Shown here piece by piece: positions 49,386-58,739 of a DNA stretch of 64,000 nt. The DNA is from Anaerolineales bacterium (GTDB lineage Bacteria; Chloroflexota; Anaerolineae; Anaerolineales; Villigracilaceae), in contig JANWWK010000064.1 of assembly GCA_025056175.1 (NCBI GenBank), positions 62,001 to 126,000 on the forward strand, read 5' to 3'. The notes below the pieces were generated by a model. That model saw nothing but the letters and a program-made list of their open reading frames with translations, did not search any database and was not told the origin of the DNA. Each line of letters begins with the position of its first letter. Positions within the stretch are counted from its first letter, which is position 1. Made by a program: the position numbers and the translations under genes.

Positions 49386-50612
49386 ATGGAAACGCTCTCT
49401 CTTCCACTTGACCACGCGGGCAAACTCCAAATCCCCAGGCATCTGGCCGACGAACTCGGCGCAGGGCCAGATGGTGAACTCTCCCTGCGCGTCACGCCGG
49501 AGGGCATTCTGTTGCGCCCCTCGCTGCACCAGGCGCGCAAGGTGTACATCGAGCCGACCGGCAAATGCAACTTCAACTGCCGCACCTGCATCCGCCACGC
49601 CTGGGAGGAGACGCCCGGCGCAATGAGCGAAGCCACCTTCCGGCGGGTTCTGGAGGGCGTTGCTGCCTTTCGCCCACGCCCCTCGGTCTTCTTTGGCGGG
49701 TTCGGCGAACCGCTCACCCATCCACGCATCGTCGAGATGGTACAGGCCGCCAAAAACGTTGCGACACGGGTGGAACTCATCACCAACGGCGTGCTGCTTG
49801 AGGCAGAAACCGCCCGGGGATTGATTGCCGCCGGGCTGGATACGCTGTGGGTCTCGCTGGATGGGGCCTCGCCCGAAAGTTTTGCCGATGTGCGCCAGAG
49901 CGAATCGCTGCGTGAGATTTTGGAGAATATCAAACGCTACCGCGAAGCCTACCGCCAGACGCGCGGCGGCACGGCAGACATCGGCGCAGTGTTCGTCGCC
50001 ATGAGGCGCAACATTCACGAATTGCCGAAACTGCTGGAGATGAGTTCCAAAATCGGCATCAGCCGCTACATGGTCACAAACGTCCTTCCCTACACGCCCG
50101 AAATGTGCCAGGAAGTCCTGTATCACCGCGCCATCGAACGGGTTGCCTGGCAGGCTTCGCCCTGGCATCCACACGTCAGCCTGCCGGAAATGGACTTGAA
50201 CCAAGCCACCCGCGAGGCGCTCTTCCAGGCCTGGAACACTCGTCCTGGCGTCATGTTCAAAAAACACGACCAATGCCCCTTCATCGAGCAGCGTTCGGTC
50301 TCCATTCGCTGGGATGGCGGCGTCAGCCCATGCCTGGCCTTACTGCATTCGCACGAGAGTTACCTGTTCGAGAAGAAACGCAACGTCAGCGCTTGGGTTA
50401 TCGGCAACGTGGACGAAACCCCGCTGCCTGACCTGTGGAACCTGCCGGAGTACCGCGCTTTCCGTGAGCGGGTCGAGCAGTTCGATTTCGCCCCCTGCAC
50501 CTACTGCGCCAGTTGCGAAATGGCCGAAGCCAACCAGGAAGACTGCTTCGGCAACACCTTTCCAGCCTGCGGCGGCTGCCTGTGGGCGCAAGGCGTCATT
50601 CAATGCCCATAA
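49386..50612 (+). CDS. Radical SAM/SPASM protein with AbrB-like N-terminus
   Basis: A 408-aa protein. Residues 1-45 (LPLDHAGKLQIPRHLADELG...) look like an AbrB/SpoVT swapped-hairpin strand set. The radical SAM core follows with [4Fe-4S] cysteines C61/C65/C68 (CNFNCRTC), FFGGFGEPLTHP and LITNGVLL. The C-terminal SPASM-like region is rich in cysteines (DQCPFIEQR, SPCLALL, CTYCASCEM, then three more CxxC-type pairs), enough for auxiliary FeS clusters. SPASM enzymes modify peptides or build cofactors; relatives include tungsten-enzyme maturases. It is placed inside an ars-type operon. The reaction is unknown, and it is unlike ArsS or ArsL in cysteine spacing and size. Confidence 0.75.
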   Translation: METLSLPLDHAGKLQIPRHLADELGAGPDGELSLRVTPEGILLRPSLHQARKVYIEPTGKCNFNCRTCIRHAWEETPGAMSEATFRRVLEGVAAFRPRPSVFFGGFGEPLTHPRIVEMVQAAKNVATRVELITNGVLLEAETARGLIAAGLDTLWVSLDGASPESFADVRQSESLREILENIKRYREAYRQTRGGTADIGAVFVAMRRNIHELPKLLEMSSKIGISRYMVTNVLPYTPEMCQEVLYHRAIERVAWQASPWHPHVSLPEMDLNQATREALFQAWNTRPGVMFKKHDQCPFIEQRSVSIRWDGGVSPCLALLHSHESYLFEKKRNVSAWVIGNVDETPLPDLWNLPEYRAFRERVEQFDFAPCTYCASCEMAEANQEDCFGNTFPACGGCLWAQGVIQCP

Positions 50613-50618
50613 AGCCGG

Positions 50619-50671
50619 ACTCCAAAGTCTCTTGACTTTGGGGTAAGTCCAAAATCGGGAGATTTTGGACT
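50619..50671. repeat. Paired intergenic hairpins (dispersed repeat, copy 2)
   Basis: Two hairpins side by side: ACTCCAAAGTC (50619-50629) / GACTTTGGGGT (50634-50644), then AGTCCAAAATC (50646-50656) / GATTTTGGACT (50661-50671), 4-base loops. It lies in the gap between the radical SAM gene and the permease. Same paired AAGTC then AAATC plan as at 27969-28010. Confidence 0.75.
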
Positions 50672-50699
50672 CCAGGTATCATCGGACCAGCGAAAAACT

Positions 50700-52157
50700 A
50701 TGGACTTTATCCTACACCTGCTCACCAGCGGCCTCGGCAACCTGGCCGCTTACCTGGCTGCGCACGTTTTACTCTGCCTGCTGCCGGCCTTCTACATCGC
50801 CGGGGCGATGACGGCTCTCATCCCCAAAGAGGCGGTCACGCGCTTTTTGGGGCGCAACACGCCCAAATGGATTTCGTACCCGGCTTCGGCGGCGGCGGGC
50901 TTCCTGCTGGCGGTCTGCTCCTGCACGGTCATTCCGCTTTTTGCCGGAATCTACAAAAAAGGCGCAGGACTCGGCCCGGCCATCACCTTCCTGTTTGTTG
51001 CGCCGGCGGTCAACGTGCTGGCACTGGTCTATACCGGCAAAATCATCGGCACCGATTTGGCCATCGCGCGGCTGGTGCTCTCCATCGCCTTTGGCATCGG
51101 CATTGGCGTCATCATGGCACTGCTGTTCAGCAAGCAGGATGCCGAACACGATGCCGCCACCGACGCGCTTTTTGCCGGGCAGGCTGCCATGCGCCGCGCG
51201 GCGGTCGTGTTCCTGCTCGTTCTGGTAGCCCTGCTGGTGGCGGGAACCTTTCAGTTCGACTTTCTGAAGCAGACCTACGCCGCGCTCACCCTGCCCATCG
51301 GGTGGGTTCAGCCCTTCCAGACCTGGCTGGCGCAGCTCGTCCCGTTCGACCCGGCGCGAGGCGAGGAGGGCGTCACCGCCCAGGGCGCGATTCTGATTGG
51401 CCTGCTGGCGCTGATTGGGCTGGCCTCCTGGCGCGGAATCGAGACCATCCACGAAGGCTTCAACCGCTGGACGTGGATTTCCACCGCGCTGGTCGGCCTG
51501 ACCCTGGTCTTTGCCGCGCTACGGATGACGCCCATCGCTGGCGGCGTGACCCTGGCTTTTACCGGCAAATTCTTTGGCGTGCTGGCAAGCGTGGTTGCCC
51601 TCGGCTGGATGTTGCGGCGCGGCCTGACCGAAGACGAAACCCGCGATACGCTCTGGGAAACGTGGAAGTTCGTCAAACAGATTTTCCCGCTCCTGCTTGT
51701 GGGCGTCTTTGCAGTCGGTGTCATCCGCCAGCTCGTCCGGCCCGAATGGATTCAGGCGGTGGCGGGGCAAAACACCCTGCTGGGTAATTTCGTCGGCGTG
51801 ATGTTTGGCGTCTTCATGTACTTCCCCACCCTGGTTGAAGTGCCAATTGCCCAGATGTTCCTGTCACTCGGAATGCACCGCGGCCCCTTGCTGGCCTACC
51901 TGATTTCCGACCCGGAACTGAGCCTGCAAAGCATCCTGATTACCGCCACAATTATCGGACGCCTGCGGGCATGGGTATACGTTTTCTGGGTCGCGCTGTT
52001 CAGCACCCTGGCTGGTCTGCTCTACGGCGCGTGGGTGGATGGCGCCAGCCTGGGGCTGATGGCGCTCTTTCTCATGGCGTTCCTGGCAACGCTGGGTGGT
52101 CTGCTCTGGCTGTTCAGCCGCCGCCAGGAACATCAACCAATTTCAACTGGAGGATAA
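50700..52157 (+). CDS. Permease of the ArsP/DUF318 family
   Basis: A 485-aa membrane protein with about ten helices. The family motif AVCSCTVIPLFAGIYKKGAG (Cys73, Cys75) followed by FLFVAPAVNVLALVY is clear, and a second copy of the fold begins near residue 320 with MFGVFMYFPTLVEVPIAQ. DUF318 permeases include ArsP, which exports trivalent organoarsenicals; some relatives move other metals. The neighbours (ArsR, arsenate reductase, CxxC protein) favour an arsenic role. The thioredoxin-like gene starts 2 bases after its stop. Confidence 0.87.
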   Translation: MDFILHLLTSGLGNLAAYLAAHVLLCLLPAFYIAGAMTALIPKEAVTRFLGRNTPKWISYPASAAAGFLLAVCSCTVIPLFAGIYKKGAGLGPAITFLFVAPAVNVLALVYTGKIIGTDLAIARLVLSIAFGIGIGVIMALLFSKQDAEHDAATDALFAGQAAMRRAAVVFLLVLVALLVAGTFQFDFLKQTYAALTLPIGWVQPFQTWLAQLVPFDPARGEEGVTAQGAILIGLLALIGLASWRGIETIHEGFNRWTWISTALVGLTLVFAALRMTPIAGGVTLAFTGKFFGVLASVVALGWMLRRGLTEDETRDTLWETWKFVKQIFPLLLVGVFAVGVIRQLVRPEWIQAVAGQNTLLGNFVGVMFGVFMYFPTLVEVPIAQMFLSLGMHRGPLLAYLISDPELSLQSILITATIIGRLRAWVYVFWVALFSTLAGLLYGAWVDGASLGLMALFLMAFLATLGGLLWLFSRRQEHQPISTGG

Positions 52158-52159
52158 AC

Positions 52160-52411
52160 ATGTTAACTGTCAAAATTTTGGGTTCGGGCTGCGCCAATTG
52201 CAAGCGAGTCGAGCAAATCGCCCGCAAAGTCATCAGCGAGATGGCGCTGGAGGCCGAAGTGGTCAAAGTCACCGACTACAAAGACATCATGGCTTACAAC
52301 ATTCTCTCAACCCCCGGACTGGTCATCAACGAAAAAGTCGTATGCAGCGGACGCATCCCCAGCCCTGCCGAAGTGACCACCTGGCTGGCAGACGCGCTCG
52401 AAACAGCCTGA
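52160..52411 (+). CDS. Thioredoxin-like small redox protein (TM0996/MTH895 type)
   Basis: An 83-aa single-domain protein starting MLTVKILGSGCANCKRVEQI, with the redox CxxC at Cys11/Cys14, a cis-proline region STPGLVINEKVV, and an additional Cys in VVCSGRIPSP. GGAGG at 52149-52153 is the ribosome site. Such proteins are regularly found beside DUF318 permeases and ArsR genes; it may hand electrons to the arsenate reductase or hold the metalloid for export (inference). Confidence 0.9.
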   Translation: MLTVKILGSGCANCKRVEQIARKVISEMALEAEVVKVTDYKDIMAYNILSTPGLVINEKVVCSGRIPSPAEVTTWLADALETA

Positions 52412-52443
52412 ATCTTAACAAGACCATAACATTCTCCTCGCGC

Positions 52444-52466
52444 AGGACAGGATAATATCCTGTCCT
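52444..52466. promoter_or_regulatory. Near-perfect palindrome before arsC
   Basis: AGGACAGGATA (52444-52454) / TATCCTGTCCT (52456-52466) with a single central A. It lies in the 80-bp gap between the thioredoxin-like gene and arsC, so could be an operator, an mRNA-processing hairpin or a dispersed repeat unit. Confidence 0.45.
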
Positions 52467-52491
52467 ACCTACCAGAACGAGGAGAGAAACC

Positions 52492-52893
52492 ATGAAAAAA
52501 GTCTTGTTCCTTTGCACCGGCAATTCCTGCCGCTCGCAGATGGCGGAGGCGATTGTGAACGCCCGCTTTGGAGACGAGTGGCAGGCCGTCAGCGCCGGGA
52601 CGCGCCCGGCAGGCTACACCCACCCCAAAGCGATTGCCGCGCTGGCCGAAATCGGCATCCAGCACCAGGGCCGCTCAAAGCACGTGGACGAGTTTCTCGG
52701 CCAGGAGTTCGATCTGGTCGTCACGGTCTGCGATTCGGCAGCGGAGGACTGCCCCGTCTGGCTGGGCAAGGGCAAAAAAGTGCATCACAGTTTCTTCGAC
52801 CCGGCCATAACCGACGACATGGCCGACTTCCGCCGCGTGCGCGATGAAATTGCGCAGGTCATTCCAAATTTGTTGCGTGAGGCAAATCTCTGA
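52492..52893 (+). CDS. arsC: Arsenate reductase, thioredoxin-coupled LMW-PTP type
   Basis: A 133-aa enzyme reducing arsenate to arsenite. The phosphatase loop is CTGNSCRS with nucleophile Cys8, and the redox relay is Cys80 and Cys87 (VTVCDSAAEDCPVW), matching the three-cysteine mechanism of pI258-type ArsC. The acidic loop FFDPAITDD supplies the general acid. GAGGAGAG precedes the ATG. As the last gene of the operon it would supply arsenite, or an organic arsenical if the radical SAM enzyme makes one, to the permease. Its stop lies inside a repeat hairpin. Confidence 0.93.
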   Translation: MKKVLFLCTGNSCRSQMAEAIVNARFGDEWQAVSAGTRPAGYTHPKAIAALAEIGIQHQGRSKHVDEFLGQEFDLVVTVCDSAAEDCPVWLGKGKKVHHSFFDPAITDDMADFRRVRDEIAQVIPNLLREANL

Positions 52894-52902: not shown

Positions 52903-53008
52903 TGCGCCGCGAATGGGAAATGAGAACAAATCCTGGCACGGCGGTTTCAAGGAGACAAACTGGTTCATCCATTATCCGAACTCCTGTATGAACCTCGCAA
53001 AATCCATC

Positions 53009-53037
53009 TTGACGCTGCACGCCCCCAATGATATAAC
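53009..53037 (+). promoter_or_regulatory. Promoter of the aspartokinase operon
   Basis: TTGACG (53009-53014), 17-base spacer, TATAAC (53032-53037). Transcription should start near 53044, giving a leader of about 160 bases before the aspartokinase ATG. The preceding 100 bases hold no gene. Confidence 0.75.
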
Positions 53038-53047
53038 TGCGCCCAAT

Positions 53048-53125
53048 ATGACCCCGACCTGCTCCAAGACGATGTCCATGACCACTACCCCTCGGTTGCC
53101 CCGCGGGGTTTCTGTGGTTGGATGA
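53048..53125 (+). CDS. Threonine/methionine-rich leader peptide
   Basis: A 25-codon frame begins at ATG 53048, a few bases after the predicted transcription start, and ends at TGA 53123-53125. It starts MTPTCSKTMSMTTTPRLPRG: six Thr (three consecutive at 53081-53089) and three Met in its first 14 residues. It precedes a terminator hairpin and an aspartokinase gene. This mirrors the thr operon leader peptides of enteric bacteria, where stalling at Thr codons relieves termination. There is no Shine-Dalgarno sequence, so it would be translated as a nearly leaderless start. Confidence 0.6.
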   Translation: MTPTCSKTMSMTTTPRLPRGVSVVG

Positions 53126-53154
53126 GTCAGGCCGAGCGCCATACCTGTCCACAC

Positions 53155-53185
53155 AAACGCCCTGCGGGAACGCGGGGCGTTTTGA
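53155..53185 (+). terminator. Attenuator terminator upstream of aspartokinase
   Basis: A 12-bp stem AAACGCCCTGCG (53155-53166) / CGCGGGGCGTTT (53171-53182), with one T:G pair, tetraloop GGAA, and TTTTGATT after. It ends 24 bases before the aspartokinase ATG. Alternative pairings exist: GGGGTTT (53105-53111) with AAAC(g)CCC of the left arm, and GCCCCGCG (53098-53105) with CGCGGGGC of the right arm. A separate hairpin, TGTGG (53113-53117) with CCACA (53149-53153), lies between leader peptide and terminator. Confidence 0.7.
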
Positions 53186-53206
53186 TTATGCAATTGAGGA
53201 GAGAAC

Positions 53207-54643
53207 ATGTCTCAGCAATCATCCCCTGGAACACTGGTCATGAAGTTTGGCGGCACATCGGTAGGCTCTGCGCGCGCCATGACGAACGTCGTACAAATCG
53301 TGCGCGAAGCACGCAGCGAATGGCCGCGCGTGGTGGTCATCACGTCAGCGCTTTCGGGCGTCACCAACCTGCTGCTGGAAAGCGCCGCACAAGCCGCGCG
53401 CGGTGAAACTGCCCAACTGCCCGAAGCCGAGCAAACCCTGCTTGCCAACCATCAGACAATCGCTACCTCGCTCATCCCTGAGGAAGCACGCCGCACCGCC
53501 GTGCTGGATGAGATTGCCGGGTTGGTGCGCTCGTTTGTGGAGCTGTGTCACGCCATTTCGGTTTTGGGAGAAGCCACCTCCCGCGCGCTGGATGCGGTTG
53601 CCTCGCTGGGCGAACGCATGAGCGTGCGGCTGTTGGCTGCCGTGCTGGAGAGTGCCGGCATTCCATCCAAAGCCATCGAAGCCAGCGAACTGATTGTCAC
53701 CGATGACCATTTTCAGAGCGCGCACCCGGATTTTTCGCTCACCACCGAACGCACGCGCCGAATCCTGCTCCCGCTACTGGAGCAGGGTCTCACCCCGGTC
53801 ATCACGGGCTTTTTGGGCGCGACCCGCGATGGCATTGTCACCACATTAGGGCGCGGCGGCAGCGATTACTCCGCCGGCATCATCGGCGCAGTGCTGCCTG
53901 CCGATGATGTGTGGATTTGGACCGACGTGGATGGCGTGATGACCGCCGACCCGCGCCTGGTGCCACAAGCACAAACCCTGTCGCAGATTTCGTACAGCGA
54001 AATTGCCGAGCTGGCCTATTTTGGCGCGAAAGTGCTACACCCGAAAACCATCCGTCCGGTGGTGGAAGCCGGCATCGGCTTGCGAATCTGTAACACCTTT
54101 AACCCATCGCATCCTGGCACACGGCTGATTGCGAACGGCAAAGCCGAAAAGCCACAGACAGGAGAAAAAGTCATCAAAGCCGTCACGGCTATCCGCAAAC
54201 AAAGGCTGGTGACCATCGAGGGGCGCGGTATGCTGGGCGTGCCGGGCGTTGCAGCGCGTGCGTTTGCAGCAGTGGCCTCCACCGGCACCAGCGTTCCGCT
54301 GATTACGCAGGCTTCTTCGGAACAATCTATTTGCTTTTCCATCCCATCAGAGGCTTCTTCCGCCGTTTTGACTGCGCTGGAAAAGACCTTTGCCGCCGAA
54401 TTGACCCAACGCGATATTGACCGTGTGTGGGCCAGCGAGGATGTTTCGATTATCACAGTGGTAGGGCATGGCACACGCCATACCCCCGGCGTCGCCGGGC
54501 AGATTTTCACACAACTGGGACGAGCGGGCATCAACGTCCTGGCGATTGCACATGGTTCTTCTGATGTCTCTATCAGCATGGTGGTTGAGTCTGCCGAAAC
54601 AGAAAAGGCCGTGAAAGCCCTGCATGAATTGATTGTCGCCTGA
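53207..54643 (+). CDS. Aspartate kinase (ThrA-type, monofunctional)
   Basis: A 478-aa enzyme phosphorylating aspartate at the head of the Lys/Thr/Met pathway. The catalytic domain has VMKFGGTSVGSARAM (10-24), ITGFLGATRDGIVTTLGRGG and WTDVDGVMTADPR. Two ACT domains occupy about 325-478. The first contains LITQASSEQSICFSIP, very like the threonine-sensing segment of E. coli ThrA, so feedback by threonine is likely; unlike ThrA, no homoserine dehydrogenase is fused. GAGGAGAG precedes the ATG. A leader peptide and terminator upstream suggest attenuation, and asd follows after 13 bases. Confidence 0.93.
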   Translation: MSQQSSPGTLVMKFGGTSVGSARAMTNVVQIVREARSEWPRVVVITSALSGVTNLLLESAAQAARGETAQLPEAEQTLLANHQTIATSLIPEEARRTAVLDEIAGLVRSFVELCHAISVLGEATSRALDAVASLGERMSVRLLAAVLESAGIPSKAIEASELIVTDDHFQSAHPDFSLTTERTRRILLPLLEQGLTPVITGFLGATRDGIVTTLGRGGSDYSAGIIGAVLPADDVWIWTDVDGVMTADPRLVPQAQTLSQISYSEIAELAYFGAKVLHPKTIRPVVEAGIGLRICNTFNPSHPGTRLIANGKAEKPQTGEKVIKAVTAIRKQRLVTIEGRGMLGVPGVAARAFAAVASTGTSVPLITQASSEQSICFSIPSEASSAVLTALEKTFAAELTQRDIDRVWASEDVSIITVVGHGTRHTPGVAGQIFTQLGRAGINVLAIAHGSSDVSISMVVESAETEKAVKALHELIVA

Positions 54644-54656
54644 AAAGGAGTTCTCA

Positions 54657-55718
54657 ATGTCTCTTGGTTCCCCTCTCCCTGTTGCCGTTCTCGGCGCCAC
54701 CGGCTCGGTGGGACAACGCTTCGTTTCTCTGCTCGATAAGCACCCCTGGTTCAAGGTCGTTGCCCTGGCAGCCAGCGACCGCTCGGAAGGCAAACCTTAC
54801 GCGCAAGCCTGCCGCTGGATTCTTTCCGAGCCGATGCCCGTCTGGGCGCGCGAGATGACCCTGCTCCCCTGCACGCCACAGGCCATGCCCGAAGTCCGCA
54901 TCGTGTTTTCGGCGCTGCCTTCGGAACAGGCCAAAACGCTCGAACCGGAGTTCGCTGCCGCCGGCTTCGCCGTTTGCTCGAATGCTTCTTCGTACCGCGC
55001 AGAAAGTGACGTGCCGTTGCTCTTGCCAGAAGTAAACGCTGGGCATATCCACCTGGTGCGGCATCAACGCCTGGCGCGCGGCTGGAGCGGCTGTATCGTC
55101 ACCAACCCCAACTGCACCAGCACCGGCCTGACGGTGACGCTTAAGGCGCTCGATGGTGCCTTCGGTGTGCGGCGCGCATTTGTCGTTTCGCTCCAGGCGC
55201 TTTCGGGTGCGGGGTATCCGGGCGTGCCGTCTCTCGATATTCTGGATAACATTATTCCGAACATCAACGGGGAAGAAGAAAAAGTAGAATGGGAACCGCG
55301 CAAAATGCTCGGTCATCTCAACGAAGACAGCATCACGCTTTCGGACATACAGATTTCCGCGCACACCAACCGTGTGGCTGTGCTGGATGGTCACACAGTG
55401 TGCGCCAGCGTGGAACTGGCAACCCCCGCACTGGTCGAAGAAGCGGTGCGCGTCCTGCGCGCTTACCAGGCACCGGAAATTGCCCGCGCGCTGCCGTCTA
55501 CCCCCAACCCTGTCATCATCGTCCGCGAAGAAGCCGATAGACCCCAGCCGCGTCTCGACCGGTTGACCGGCGGCGGGATGACCACCGTAGTGGGCAGGGT
55601 GCGCCCCGACCCGTTGCTGACGCTTAAGTTTGTGGTTCTCTCACACAACACTATTCGTGGTGCAGCAGGCGGTTCAATTTACAACGCCGAATTGCTTGTA
55701 AGCGAGGGGTTACTCTGA
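54657..55718 (+). CDS. asd: Aspartate-semialdehyde dehydrogenase
   Basis: A 353-aa NADPH-dependent enzyme reducing aspartyl phosphate to the semialdehyde. The start at 54657 (MSLGSPLPVAVLGATGSVGQ) follows AAAAGGAG right at the aspartokinase stop. The active-site Cys153 is in TNPNCTSTGL and the catalytic His236 in SAHTNRVAV. Length and the NNxxxRGAAGGSI-like end (NTIRGAAGGSIYNAELL) match the archaeal/fungal branch rather than the classic bacterial one. It forms a two-gene operon with aspartokinase. Confidence 0.95.
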   Translation: MSLGSPLPVAVLGATGSVGQRFVSLLDKHPWFKVVALAASDRSEGKPYAQACRWILSEPMPVWAREMTLLPCTPQAMPEVRIVFSALPSEQAKTLEPEFAAAGFAVCSNASSYRAESDVPLLLPEVNAGHIHLVRHQRLARGWSGCIVTNPNCTSTGLTVTLKALDGAFGVRRAFVVSLQALSGAGYPGVPSLDILDNIIPNINGEEEKVEWEPRKMLGHLNEDSITLSDIQISAHTNRVAVLDGHTVCASVELATPALVEEAVRVLRAYQAPEIARALPSTPNPVIIVREEADRPQPRLDRLTGGGMTTVVGRVRPDPLLTLKFVVLSHNTIRGAAGGSIYNAELLVSEGLL

Positions 55719-55785: not shown

Positions 55786-58656
55786 TTATAGTTCGAGCGC
55801 AACGGCTCTCTTTTGCAGCTCCCAGAGCAGTTTTTCCTGGTCTACCGGCAGAGAGTCAAAGCGCACGCCAACGGCGTTGTAGATGGCATTGGTGATGGCC
55901 GGCGGGGTGGGAATCAGGACAATTTCTCCCACGCCTTTTGCGCCGTAGGGGCCGGTCGAAACCGGGTCTTCAACCACAATCGGGATGATTTCCGGCGTGT
56001 GGACGATGGATGGCACACGGTAACGCGCCATGCGGTCGGTCACGACATAACCGTTTTCGGTGATGAAGTTTTCGAGCAGGGCATGCCCCACTCCCATCAC
56101 CACGCCGCCTTCGATTTGCCCGCGCAAACCCAGTGGGTTGAGAGCATGGCCGACGTCGTTTGCAGCAATCACCCGCAAGACCCTCACCTCCCCGGTCAGG
56201 GTATTCACTTCGACTTCGGCGGCCTGCGCCGCAAACGAGAACGCCACGTGCATATCACCCGGTGTGCCAAGCGGAGTGGTGGCTGGAGCGTGATAGTCGT
56301 ACAGGACGCGCGGCTCTTTTCCGGCGGCTTTCATCTCCCGGTACACTTCTTGCATGGTAAGCGCATGCCCGTTGACATGCACACACCCTTTCTCAAAGCG
56401 AATGGCTTCAGGCGGCTGGTCGTATTTTTCGGCCAGCGTGGCAGTGATTGCTTCGCGCAGGGTGCGCGCAGCCAGACGCGAGGCATTGCCGGTCACGTAG
56501 GTCTGACGCGAGGCGGTGGTGGGGCCGCCGTTGGGGGTCAGGTCGGTATCCATCACCCGCACGCGCACCTGTTCGGGCGGTAGGGAGAGCTCTTCGGCTA
56601 CGACCAGGCGCATCACCGTCACCAAACCCTGCCCCAGTTCGGCAGAAGAAGAGCGCACCTCGAACAACCCGTCGGCGTAGAGTTCCACTTCCGCCCCGGC
56701 ACAATCATCAGCGCCGCCGCCCAGCCCGGTGTTTTTGAAGCCCACCGCAAAGCCCCACGCGCGTATCAAATGGGGGGACTCTGGCACACGCCGCGCTTTG
56801 AACAACGCCTGGCGCAACAAACCAGATACCTGAACCATGCGCTCTGAAACCTTGTCAATACATTCCATCAGCCCCACGCTCTCGCGCAAGACCTGCCCGG
56901 TGCTGGTTTCGGTATCAGGGCGCAGGGCGTTTTTGCGGCGCAATTCAATCGGGTCTAACCCCAGCCGTTCGGCCAGCATGTCCATCGCGCTTTCGATGGC
57001 AAACGCCGATTGCAAAACCCCAAACCCGCGAAACGCGCCTGCCGGAGGGTTATTGGTGTACATGGCATAACAATCGGCGTGAACGTGCGGAATGACATAC
57101 GGTCCAGCCGAATGTGTGGTGGCACGGGTCAGCACTTTTTCGCCAAGCGAAGCATACGCGCCCGTATCACCATACAGTTCCGTCCTGACAGCGGTCAGCG
57201 TTCCGTCTTTCTTTGCGCCAATTTTGACGGTGATTTGTGTGGCGTGGCGTTTGGGATGCACCAGCAAACTTTCGCGGCGGTCAAACAGAAGTTTGACCGG
57301 CCTGCCGGTGGCATTTGCCAGCAACGCAGCATGAATTTGCCCGGCGATGTCTTCTTTGCCGCCAAAGCCGCCGCCCATCAATTGCCCCACCACGCGAACG
57401 CGGCTCTCCTCCCAGCCCAGCGCGCGCGCTACCTGGCTCCTATCCTGATACGGTATCTGGGAGCCGACGTAAATTAACATCCGCTCGCCCTCTGGCACGG
57501 CGATACTGCATTCCGGTTCGATGAACAAATGGTCGTGCGCGGGGGTGTGAAAGGTGTGTTCCAGAATCACATCCGCTTCGCGGAAGCCAGTTTCGGGGTC
57601 GCCCTTGCGAACTTTGATGTGCTTGAGTAGATTGCCTTTGGGGTGCAACTGCGGCACATCGGCCTGGCGCGCCTGAACAGGGTTACTGATGACCGGTTGC
57701 AGGTCGAACTCGACTTCAATGGCCTCCACAGCCGCACGCGCCTGTTCCTGGCTCTCAGCAGCCACAATCGCAATGGCATCGCCCACGTAACGCACGCGCT
57801 CACCAACTCCCACCATCACAGGCCAATCACGCGTCACCAGGCCGTGCAAATTCTCCCCGGGGATGTCTTCTGCTGTCAGGACGGCGGCTACACCGGGCAT
57901 CTGACGGGCGCGGCTGACCTCGATGCGGCGCACAAAGGCGTGCGGCACGCCCGCACGCCGCACGGCAGCATACAGCATGTTCTCAAAGACCAGGTCATCG
58001 GTGTAAATGGCCTGACCCGTCACCTTTTCAACCCCATCAGGACGCAGATGCAGATGTCCAACCACCTGTCCCTGCTGCGCTGAAGGAGAAACATCTGGCC
58101 CGGCGACGGGTTCTCCGGTACGCAAGGCATGAGCCGCCGCTAAAATCGCCTTCTCGATGGTGGGATAGCCCGCACACCGGCAGATGGTATCTTTGAGCGC
58201 ATGACGAATTTCGGCAGAGGTTGGGTCAGGATTTCTGGAAAGCAGGCCGTAAGCGGTCATAATCTGTCCGGGGATGCAGAACCCGCACTGCACCGCTCCA
58301 TGTTTAATGAAGGCTTCCTGTAACGGATGGAGTGCCGCGCTCAACCCTTCTCCCTGCGGAAGCGAGGCGTCTTGTTCCCGCCCCTCCAGGCGGGAAAAAC
58401 GCGTAGCAAGGGAAGCCAGCCCTTCAATCGTCAACACCGTCTTGCCATCGGCGCGCTCGGCAGGGGTAGAACAGGAAAGAACCGGTTCGCCATCCAGGAT
58501 GACCGTGCAGGCACCGCACTCGGCCTCGTTACAGCCAATTTTCGTACCGGTCAGACGCAAGCGTTTACGAAGCAAATCTGCCAGCGTTTCGCCGGGAATT
58601 GAGGCCAGCGTGTGGATGGTCCCATTGACGGTTAGGGTCAGGTGTGTTTTTCGCAT
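55786..58656 (-). CDS. Molybdenum hydroxylase, fused [2Fe-2S] and molybdopterin subunit
   Basis: A 956-aa xanthine dehydrogenase-family subunit (start taken at 58656, MRKTHLTLTVNGTIHTLASI; Met codons at 58698 and 58713 are alternatives). The ferredoxin-like domain has CNEAECGAC (Cys42/47/50) and Cys62. The second FeS domain has CGFC and CRCAGYP. The Mo domain starts near residue 190 and has VGQLMGGGFGGKED, PPAGAFRGFG and the C-terminal TGPYGAKGVGE with the catalytic Glu. FeS-Mo fusion occurs in selenium-dependent hydroxylases and YgfN/XdhD-like enzymes; the substrate (purine or another N-heterocycle) is not known. Its FAD subunit is encoded upstream. Confidence 0.9.
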   Translation of the reverse strand: MRKTHLTLTVNGTIHTLASIPGETLADLLRKRLRLTGTKIGCNEAECGACTVILDGEPVLSCSTPAERADGKTVLTIEGLASLATRFSRLEGREQDASLPQGEGLSAALHPLQEAFIKHGAVQCGFCIPGQIMTAYGLLSRNPDPTSAEIRHALKDTICRCAGYPTIEKAILAAAHALRTGEPVAGPDVSPSAQQGQVVGHLHLRPDGVEKVTGQAIYTDDLVFENMLYAAVRRAGVPHAFVRRIEVSRARQMPGVAAVLTAEDIPGENLHGLVTRDWPVMVGVGERVRYVGDAIAIVAAESQEQARAAVEAIEVEFDLQPVISNPVQARQADVPQLHPKGNLLKHIKVRKGDPETGFREADVILEHTFHTPAHDHLFIEPECSIAVPEGERMLIYVGSQIPYQDRSQVARALGWEESRVRVVGQLMGGGFGGKEDIAGQIHAALLANATGRPVKLLFDRRESLLVHPKRHATQITVKIGAKKDGTLTAVRTELYGDTGAYASLGEKVLTRATTHSAGPYVIPHVHADCYAMYTNNPPAGAFRGFGVLQSAFAIESAMDMLAERLGLDPIELRRKNALRPDTETSTGQVLRESVGLMECIDKVSERMVQVSGLLRQALFKARRVPESPHLIRAWGFAVGFKNTGLGGGADDCAGAEVELYADGLFEVRSSSAELGQGLVTVMRLVVAEELSLPPEQVRVRVMDTDLTPNGGPTTASRQTYVTGNASRLAARTLREAITATLAEKYDQPPEAIRFEKGCVHVNGHALTMQEVYREMKAAGKEPRVLYDYHAPATTPLGTPGDMHVAFSFAAQAAEVEVNTLTGEVRVLRVIAANDVGHALNPLGLRGQIEGGVVMGVGHALLENFITENGYVVTDRMARYRVPSIVHTPEIIPIVVEDPVSTGPYGAKGVGEIVLIPTPPAITNAIYNAVGVRFDSLPVDQEKLLWELQKRAVALEL

Positions 58657-58739
58657 GGAATTCTCGTGCTGATTGGAGGTCTGATATTCAGTGACCATAG
58701 TTTTACCCTGCATTCGTCGAGCCAGACACTGCTTGTTGA

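Follow-up and report, generated by a model that had tools for sequence, protein, structure and literature searches.

Predicted ribosome-mediated attenuation of an aspartokinase–asd operon in Chloroflexota

Genes and features of the locus

In the window, by which we mean the whole 64,000-nucleotide stretch of DNA analysed here, an aspartokinase gene is followed after 13 bases by a gene for an aspartate-semialdehyde dehydrogenase and preceded by a series of putative regulatory features (Table 1). The kinase exceeds the cut-off of TIGR00657, with its nearest equivalogs in the NCBIfam search staying below theirs, and has one match in its own genome. An earlier note, made from the sequence without database searches, had called it ThrA-type; this holds at most for the kinase part, as the protein is monofunctional. 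The same note's guess of a Chloroflexota origin agrees with the names of the relatives: among the kinase loci from named species genomes, of which the best 80 of 575 were kept, 78 carry Chloroflexota names, and the two exceptions have titles naming Acidobacteriota and KSB1.

Genes for a radical SAM protein, a permease, an ArsE-type protein and the ArsC-like protein stand in series upstream (window 49386-52893). The radical SAM protein resembles a tungsten-cofactor oxidoreductase maturase (310.7 bits, cut-off 380), the permease is near the Cu/Zn or SaoE efflux families, and the ArsE-type thioredoxin-like protein lies above the cut-off of TIGR00412. On the minus strand, a gene convergent with asd (window 55786-58713), its end 67 bases beyond asd, encodes a 975-amino-acid protein that matches both iron-sulfur and molybdopterin subunits and is nearest to selenium-dependent xanthine dehydrogenase (785.8 bits, cut-off 830.45).

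Table 1 Features of the attenuator region and adjoining genes (window positions)
Feature	Position	Strand	Remarks
ArsC-like gene	ends 52893		upstream neighbour of the attenuator region
−35 hexamer TTGACG	53009-53014	+	read in sequence
−10 hexamer TATAAC	53032-53037	+	ends 10 nt before leader ATG
Leader peptide frame MTPTCSKTMSMTTTPRLPRGVSVVG, 25 codons	53048-53125	+	ATG 53048, stop TGA 53123-53125
Putative control codons Thr-Met-Ser-Met-Thr-Thr-Thr (ACG ATG TCC ATG ACC ACT ACC)	53069-53089	+	
Segment 1 CCCCTCGG	53088-53095	+	overlaps last Thr codon; partner of segment 2 in predicted protector
Segment 2 CCCGCGGGGT	53100-53109	+	common to predicted protector and antiterminator; A1 columns 44-51 are 53101-53108
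Left terminator arm AAACGCCCTGCG	53155-53166	+	pairing in 99.0% of cells; two-sided change at 7 of 10 pairs
Antiterminator 3′ strand GCCCTGCGGG	53159-53168	+	overlaps left terminator arm
Right terminator arm CGCGGGGCGTTT	53171-53182	+	hairpin loop GGAA
T tract TTTT	53180-53183	+	short (TTTTGATT)
Shine-Dalgarno-like GAGGAGAG of aspartokinase	53196-53203	+	read in sequence
Aspartokinase, monofunctional, 478 aa, ACT domains	53207-54643	+	NCBIfam, Pfam
Aspartate-semialdehyde dehydrogenase (asd_EA type)	54657-55718	+	TIGR00978, 411 bits, cut-off 301

Re-reading of the sequence confirmed the promoter, the 25-codon frame and the 12-bp terminator that the earlier note had placed directly before the aspartokinase–asd pair. 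The promoter hexamers are 17 nt apart; an automated promoter scan of the window did not list 53009-53037 because it demands T at the sixth −10 base. Within the first 14 codons of the leader there are, as had been counted, six Thr (three of them consecutive, at 53081-53089) and three Met, including the start. The terminator hairpin at 53155-53182 comprises 12 bp with one G-U pair and has a predicted energy of −22.2 kcal/mol (z −5.8), matched by none of 200 shuffles; an automated terminator scan of the window, set to require five T within eight bases behind a stem, did not list it.

The RNA of the window can fold in two ways. From 53096 to 53170, the part that a ribosome stalled on the Thr codons would leave exposed, it folds into an antiterminator of ten pairs (53100-53109 with 53159-53168), and from 53081 to 53185 into a protector hairpin plus the terminator, with 0 of 200 shuffles as good in either case. 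The protector pairs 53088-53095 with 53101-53108, and the same fold also pairs 53081-53085 with 53114-53118; taken alone, the protector is matched by 26 of 200 shuffles (z −1.3). The motif GGGGTTT, which the earlier note had paired with the left terminator arm, is present at 53105-53111, but the fold gives a better register in the ten-pair antiterminator.

Conservation of the element among relatives

Comparison was based on 150 genomes of the same family, 97 of which had a kinase match at E 1e-40, and on the named loci described above. The 100 family matches yielded 96 loci (30 + 66), with G110 (twice), G120 and G122 left out. After identical sequences were merged, 176 loci gave 136 distinct upstream regions, of which 129 were long enough for a null test. 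Of these 129 regions, 78 contain a short frame that opens with ATG and includes four or more Thr within eight codons; none of the 129 reverse complements does, and ten shuffled sets average 1.2 each. The Thr-rich frame is kept among relatives despite variation in sequence and length.

We also applied a fixed rule, consisting of TTGAC 36-44 nt before a start codon, then a leader with at least four Thr plus Met in ten codons (at least two of them Thr) and then a terminator. Seventy-six of 92 distinct family upstream regions pass and 16 fail, whereas no reverse complement (0 of 92) and no sequence in twenty shuffled sets of the family regions does so; outside the family, 4 of 38 regions pass. When 91 regions are sorted by kinase identity, the rule is passed by 40 of 42 with an identity of at least 68%, 11 of 13 at 64-68%, 3 of 12 at 60-64% and 1 of 24 at 50-60%. 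The pass rate thus falls with kinase identity, which argues that the element characterizes the family and has scattered relatives elsewhere. Several of the loci without the element, among those listed for inspection, have the kinase gene, as judged by eye, closely behind another coding region. Among loci with room for it, an asd homologue is present at 34 of 37 leader-bearing loci as against 15 of 33 other named loci. The earlier note had named, as evidence that would speak against an attenuator, relatives with the hairpin but no Thr-rich frame; the relatives instead keep the hairpin, the frame and the alternative pairing jointly.

Thr-rich frames were found in 93 regions. A terminator was not found in four of them (L092, L098, L104 and L159), and four more (L049, L075, L083 and L101) were set aside by eye, leaving the 85 leaders used below; L075, L083 and L092 were later judged real by eye, and the terminators assigned by script to L027, L123, L139 and L176 are probably misplaced. 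Upstream of the kinase of Anaerolinea thermolimosa (L085), a frame starting from GTG contains TITTITITRIPIP, and the usual promoter was not seen there by eye.

Promoter spacing and a probable leaderless start

In 78 of 84 leaders, TTGAC lies between −50 and −26 relative to the leader ATG (1.3 in shuffles). Of these 78, 73 have a 17-nt spacer, and 69 have a −10 box that stops 10-11 nt short of the ATG. A Shine-Dalgarno-like motif (AGGA, GGAG or GAGG) occurs near the leader ATG in only 1 of 84 leaders; ahead of the kinase ATG, taken as the most distant one in frame, it stands at 4-20 nt in 81 of 85. As transcription usually starts 6-8 nt past the −10 box, the 5′ untranslated region would be a few bases long. 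Leaderless messages are recognized in sequence by a −10 box close to the ATG and the lack of a Shine-Dalgarno motif, and the leaders have both. The leader frame is therefore probably leaderless, with the AUG near the 5′ end given by the predicted start site.

Alternative pairings and covariation

An alignment, A1, drew on 67 of the 89 terminator-bearing leaders, excluding divergent or misplaced ones, and was thinned to 51 sequences by shared 8-mers, so that its counts describe the alignable core only. Columns 44-51 pair either with 31-38 (protector) or with 130-137 (antiterminator), and columns 127-136 pair with 145-154 (terminator). Antiterminator and terminator are mutually exclusive, because columns 130-136 pair with either 44-51 or 145-151.

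The compensatory change that had been sought in aligned relatives is present in both of these structures. In the antiterminator, 95.8% of cells are paired (39-67% in slid versions) and 27 two-sided changes compare with a shuffled mean of 8.0; in the terminator, 99.0% of cells are paired and 27 two-sided changes compare with a mean of 5.6. Two of five antiterminator measures were not extreme, namely two-sided pairs (60 of 500 shuffles) and pair types (32 of 500). Three-way covariation is apparent, with columns 47-134-147 mostly U-A-U or C-G-C and columns 48-133-148 mostly G-C-G, with A-U-A in a few. For the protector, 82.6% of cells are paired (33-61% in slid versions), but its 11 two-sided cells compare with a shuffled mean of 4.5 and with up to 18 in slid versions, its covariation score of 0.152 is no better than the slid maximum of 0.153, 482 of 500 shuffles have more pair types than it does, and its inner pairs shift register. 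Compared with slid versions, then, antiterminator and terminator stand out on all measures, whereas the protector does so on paired cells only; its predicted pairing is kept, and its covariation is not decisive. Unaided, RNAalifold predicts the outer protector pairs and the terminator. A further hairpin behind the leader, which the earlier note had described as an intermediate, is present but weak (−3.6 kcal/mol, z 0.2) and loosely conserved (69.3% of cells), and the attenuator model does not need it.

Other tests indicate how far the pairing signal extends. Mapped on a tree of 37 kinases, three antiterminator pairs need a minimum of 6, 3 and 3 changes, which are few events. A test of independent pairs was underpowered, as there were too few pairs to reach significance, and a few random pairings had one pair going the opposite way. 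When arms were swapped between loci, self pairing averaged −18.7 compared with −14.1 kcal/mol, 20% of swaps were as good and 12 of 85 leaders beat every swap. Against synonymous-codon versions, 25 of 85 leaders beat 95%; against base shuffles, 49 of 85 beat 99%. The swap and synonymous-codon tests are weak, probably because the arms resemble one another and segment 2 is almost fully determined by the peptide. Taken together, comparison at the level of sequence establishes the frame with its codons, the predicted antiterminator and terminator as mutually exclusive structures, the spacing of the promoter and the want of a Shine-Dalgarno motif before the leader.

Two loci (L018:2980-3113 and L122:318-450) carry a partial tandem duplication of the left terminator arm (about ACGCCTCACGCCTCACG), natural variants in which segment 2 could pair with either of two partners.

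Similar leaders before other genes

We built a covariance model from A1 for RNA model searches. In its own genome the model had one strong match, the aspartokinase locus; the second best, L178, was rejected as, by eye, a hairpin beside an apparent tRNA. Matches were found in 119 of 301 genomes of the order, many of them weak, and in 35 of 400 genomes of the phylum, with 18 in the family (own genome included) and 17 outside it at E 1e-6 to 0.01. Twenty secondary or distant matches were opened. Thirteen belong to a class I/II aminotransferase, two to threonine synthase, two to hisG and one to a kinase (L245); the remaining two (L236 and L240) are plain terminators in which such a leader frame is absent.

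The 13 aminotransferase loci (L232-L235, L237-L239, L241-L244, L247 and L248), assigned by likeness to L234, have leaders rich in Thr and, in most cases, in Asn. L234 itself matches PF00155 only, and among the NCBIfam matches listed for it none is above its cut-off, the best being a guanitoxin-pathway enzyme (74.5 of 415 bits). The own genome has no match to this aminotransferase at E 1e-60. At the thresholds used, 29 of 101 genomes of the order have the aminotransferase and 53 have hisG, and 29 and 30 loci, respectively, were examined. A frame with at least four Thr or Asn in ten codons precedes 18 of 29 aminotransferase genes (reverse complements 3, shuffles 3.1). Taken by itself, Asn gives a modest signal at these loci, as a frame with at least two Asn in ten codons occurs at 15 of 29 loci versus 6.7 in shuffles. 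In the control window (ten codons round the densest run), Asn makes up 17.8% in 23 aminotransferase leaders, some of which were selected for Thr plus Asn content, and 18.5% in the 13 that came solely from the RNA model. Complementarity between leader and left terminator arm exceeds shuffles in 19 of 20 aminotransferase leaders, hand-picked from the model matches and the locus survey. The Thr and Asn codons suggest that this aminotransferase, which lacks a named family, may form aspartate.

The two threonine synthases (L250 and, from another part of the phylum, L251) are above curated ThrC cut-offs, and their leaders contain 6 and 8 consecutive Thr; TTGAC is found upstream of one of the two, and one of the two passed the complementarity test. 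The hisG matches with His-rich leaders are L249, above the curated cut-off, and L246, identified by PF01634. A frame with at least three His in ten codons precedes 26 of 30 hisG genes, including that of the own genome, compared with 4 reverse complements and 1.4 in shuffles. The own-genome hisG region (L306:299-470, contig C15) has the leader MVRMTALHHHHPKRPLPDRSAG, a −10 box ending 10 nt before its ATG and a terminator with a T tract; its leader/left-arm complementarity has p 0.06. Across 22 hisG leaders, terminators are present in all (by a lax rule), a Shine-Dalgarno-like motif in none and TTGAC upstream in 10, and complementarity was mostly negative (7 of 22 beyond shuffles). The His case therefore rests on codons, terminators and the lack of a Shine-Dalgarno-like motif.

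Proposed mechanism and alternative readings

The region has the codon-rich leader, intrinsic terminator and mutually exclusive antiterminator of a classical attenuator. We consider that 53009-53190 is a ribosome-mediated transcription attenuator of the aspartokinase–asd operon, with a probability of roughly 0.9, and the reading proposed in the earlier note is well supported by the comparison across the family. Transcription would begin a few nucleotides before the leader ATG, and a ribosome would load on the leaderless AUG. With ample charged Thr-tRNA, and probably Met-tRNA, it would reach the stop codon and leave; segment 1 would then pair with segment 2, the left terminator arm would stay free and the terminator would end transcription. 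When Thr (or Met) is scarce, the ribosome would stall at the control codons and mask segment 1, segment 2 would pair with the antiterminator 3′ strand, and the operon would be read with its terminator blocked. The earlier note had instead proposed that a ribosome at the stop covers GGGGTTT; judged by its footprint, such a ribosome would touch only the 3′ end of that motif, so the protector hairpin explains termination better.

The earlier note had described a Thr-type leader, and the element would indeed respond to Thr. The same attenuator might sense Thr only, its ATGs being spare leaderless starts or serving RNA shape. Thr is the dominant codon (49.6% of the control window in 85 kinase leaders), 8 of the 85 have no Met in that window and E. 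coli-type thr leaders combine Thr with Ile. Met nevertheless accounts for 18.4% of that same window, compared with 2.2% in 27 like-built His leaders and 4.3% in 23 aminotransferase leaders. Start codons excluded, it makes up 8.0% of leader residues, against 1.5% of the window kinase and 0.6% in the other two frames, and MM beside Thr runs recurs in dissimilar leaders (L030, L070, L086 and L172). This enrichment makes sensing of Thr and Met together likelier than Thr alone, which we regard as possible but doubtful. Kinase and asd supply both the Thr and the Met pathways, so joint sensing would make sense, and the kinase leaders probably co-sense Met besides Thr.

Two other readings dispense with stalling at scarce codons. 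The terminator could be constitutive, or a metabolite, a T-box or a protein could control it, with an incidental leader frame; a strong terminator is the best conserved element, and regulation in Chloroflexota has been little studied. Yet the frame keeps its Thr and Met codons while its bases vary, leaders of other operons carry codons of their own product, and at gathering thresholds no Rfam family, Thr_leader (RF00506) and T-box included, matches across the window; at E up to 10, the interval 52950-53260 gave five weak sRNA or miRNA matches only, far below cut-offs. We hold this reading to be extremely improbable. Alternatively, the leader peptide or released RNA could act in trans, or the peptide could arrest its own ribosome by its sequence. 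A C-terminal REAFVLG/RGVLVxG looks conserved by eye, and in Sinorhizobium meliloti the peptide peTrpL is reported to be needed for regulation of other genes (PMC7298713). That C-terminal part, however, coincides with segment 2, which covaries base by base with the terminator arm, and distant leaders with different C-termini still match their own arm (L062 and L172), which makes such action very unlikely.

We lean, by a small measure, towards a broader proposal, in which leaderless ribosome-mediated attenuation is widespread in Chloroflexota over the aspartate family and histidine, with a codon mixture that encodes the end products being read: Thr and Met for aspartokinase–asd, Thr and Asn for the aminotransferase that may make aspartate, Thr for threonine synthase and His for hisG. 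These leaders have no Rfam match, and their origin may be independent of the proteobacterial ones. If this is true, textbook attenuation would reach a phylum without a case in the literature searched, would be coupled there to leaderless translation and would offer a readable code for the sensing of several end products. Leader codons would also give clues to function, as for the PF00155 aminotransferase.

Comparison with known systems

The mechanism is already known; within the reach of our searches, its carrier, its leaderless start and the mixtures of codons are new. The closest counterpart is the thr attenuator of E. coli and relatives (thrL), which likewise combines a Thr-rich leader peptide with antiterminator/terminator logic before the first aspartate-pathway enzyme. 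The Chloroflexota element differs in its phylum, in having no Rfam match, in its probably leaderless start, in placing Met rather than Ile beside Thr and in controlling a monofunctional kinase with asd. T-box riboswitches likewise exert amino-acid-dependent control of a terminator, but they sense uncharged tRNA directly and require no leader peptide, whereas here there is a leader peptide frame and no Rfam T-box match. Lopatovskaya et al. 2010 may contain earlier attenuator predictions outside Proteobacteria.

Among the titles and abstracts listed by open-access literature searches, none reported an attenuator in Chloroflexota. In the accessible portions of the respective papers, the sole mention of Chloroflexi is that they have too few genomes to be judged (PMC4833913), conserved RNA structures are said to be lacking before threonine or methionine operons in Actinobacteria (PMC1262725), and the thr operon leader is given eight ACC codons (PMC1183508). 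His attenuators have been proposed in Firmicutes, likewise outside Proteobacteria and by the same comparative route, and the available text of that study concerns Firmicutes and histidine only, whereas the leaders described here are from Chloroflexota (PMC9413887). In Streptomyces lividans, leader frames are reported, in the part of the paper at hand, to be leaderless for leuL, metL (before metN) and thrL (before thrS), and Thr and Met leaders are proposed, metL having several Met and Thr codons (PMC8079986). Those leaders precede thrS and metN, and termination is called unclear there (PMC8079986, same part), whereas the leader described here precedes aspartokinase and is joined to a strong terminator and to an antiterminator that are kept in many genomes.
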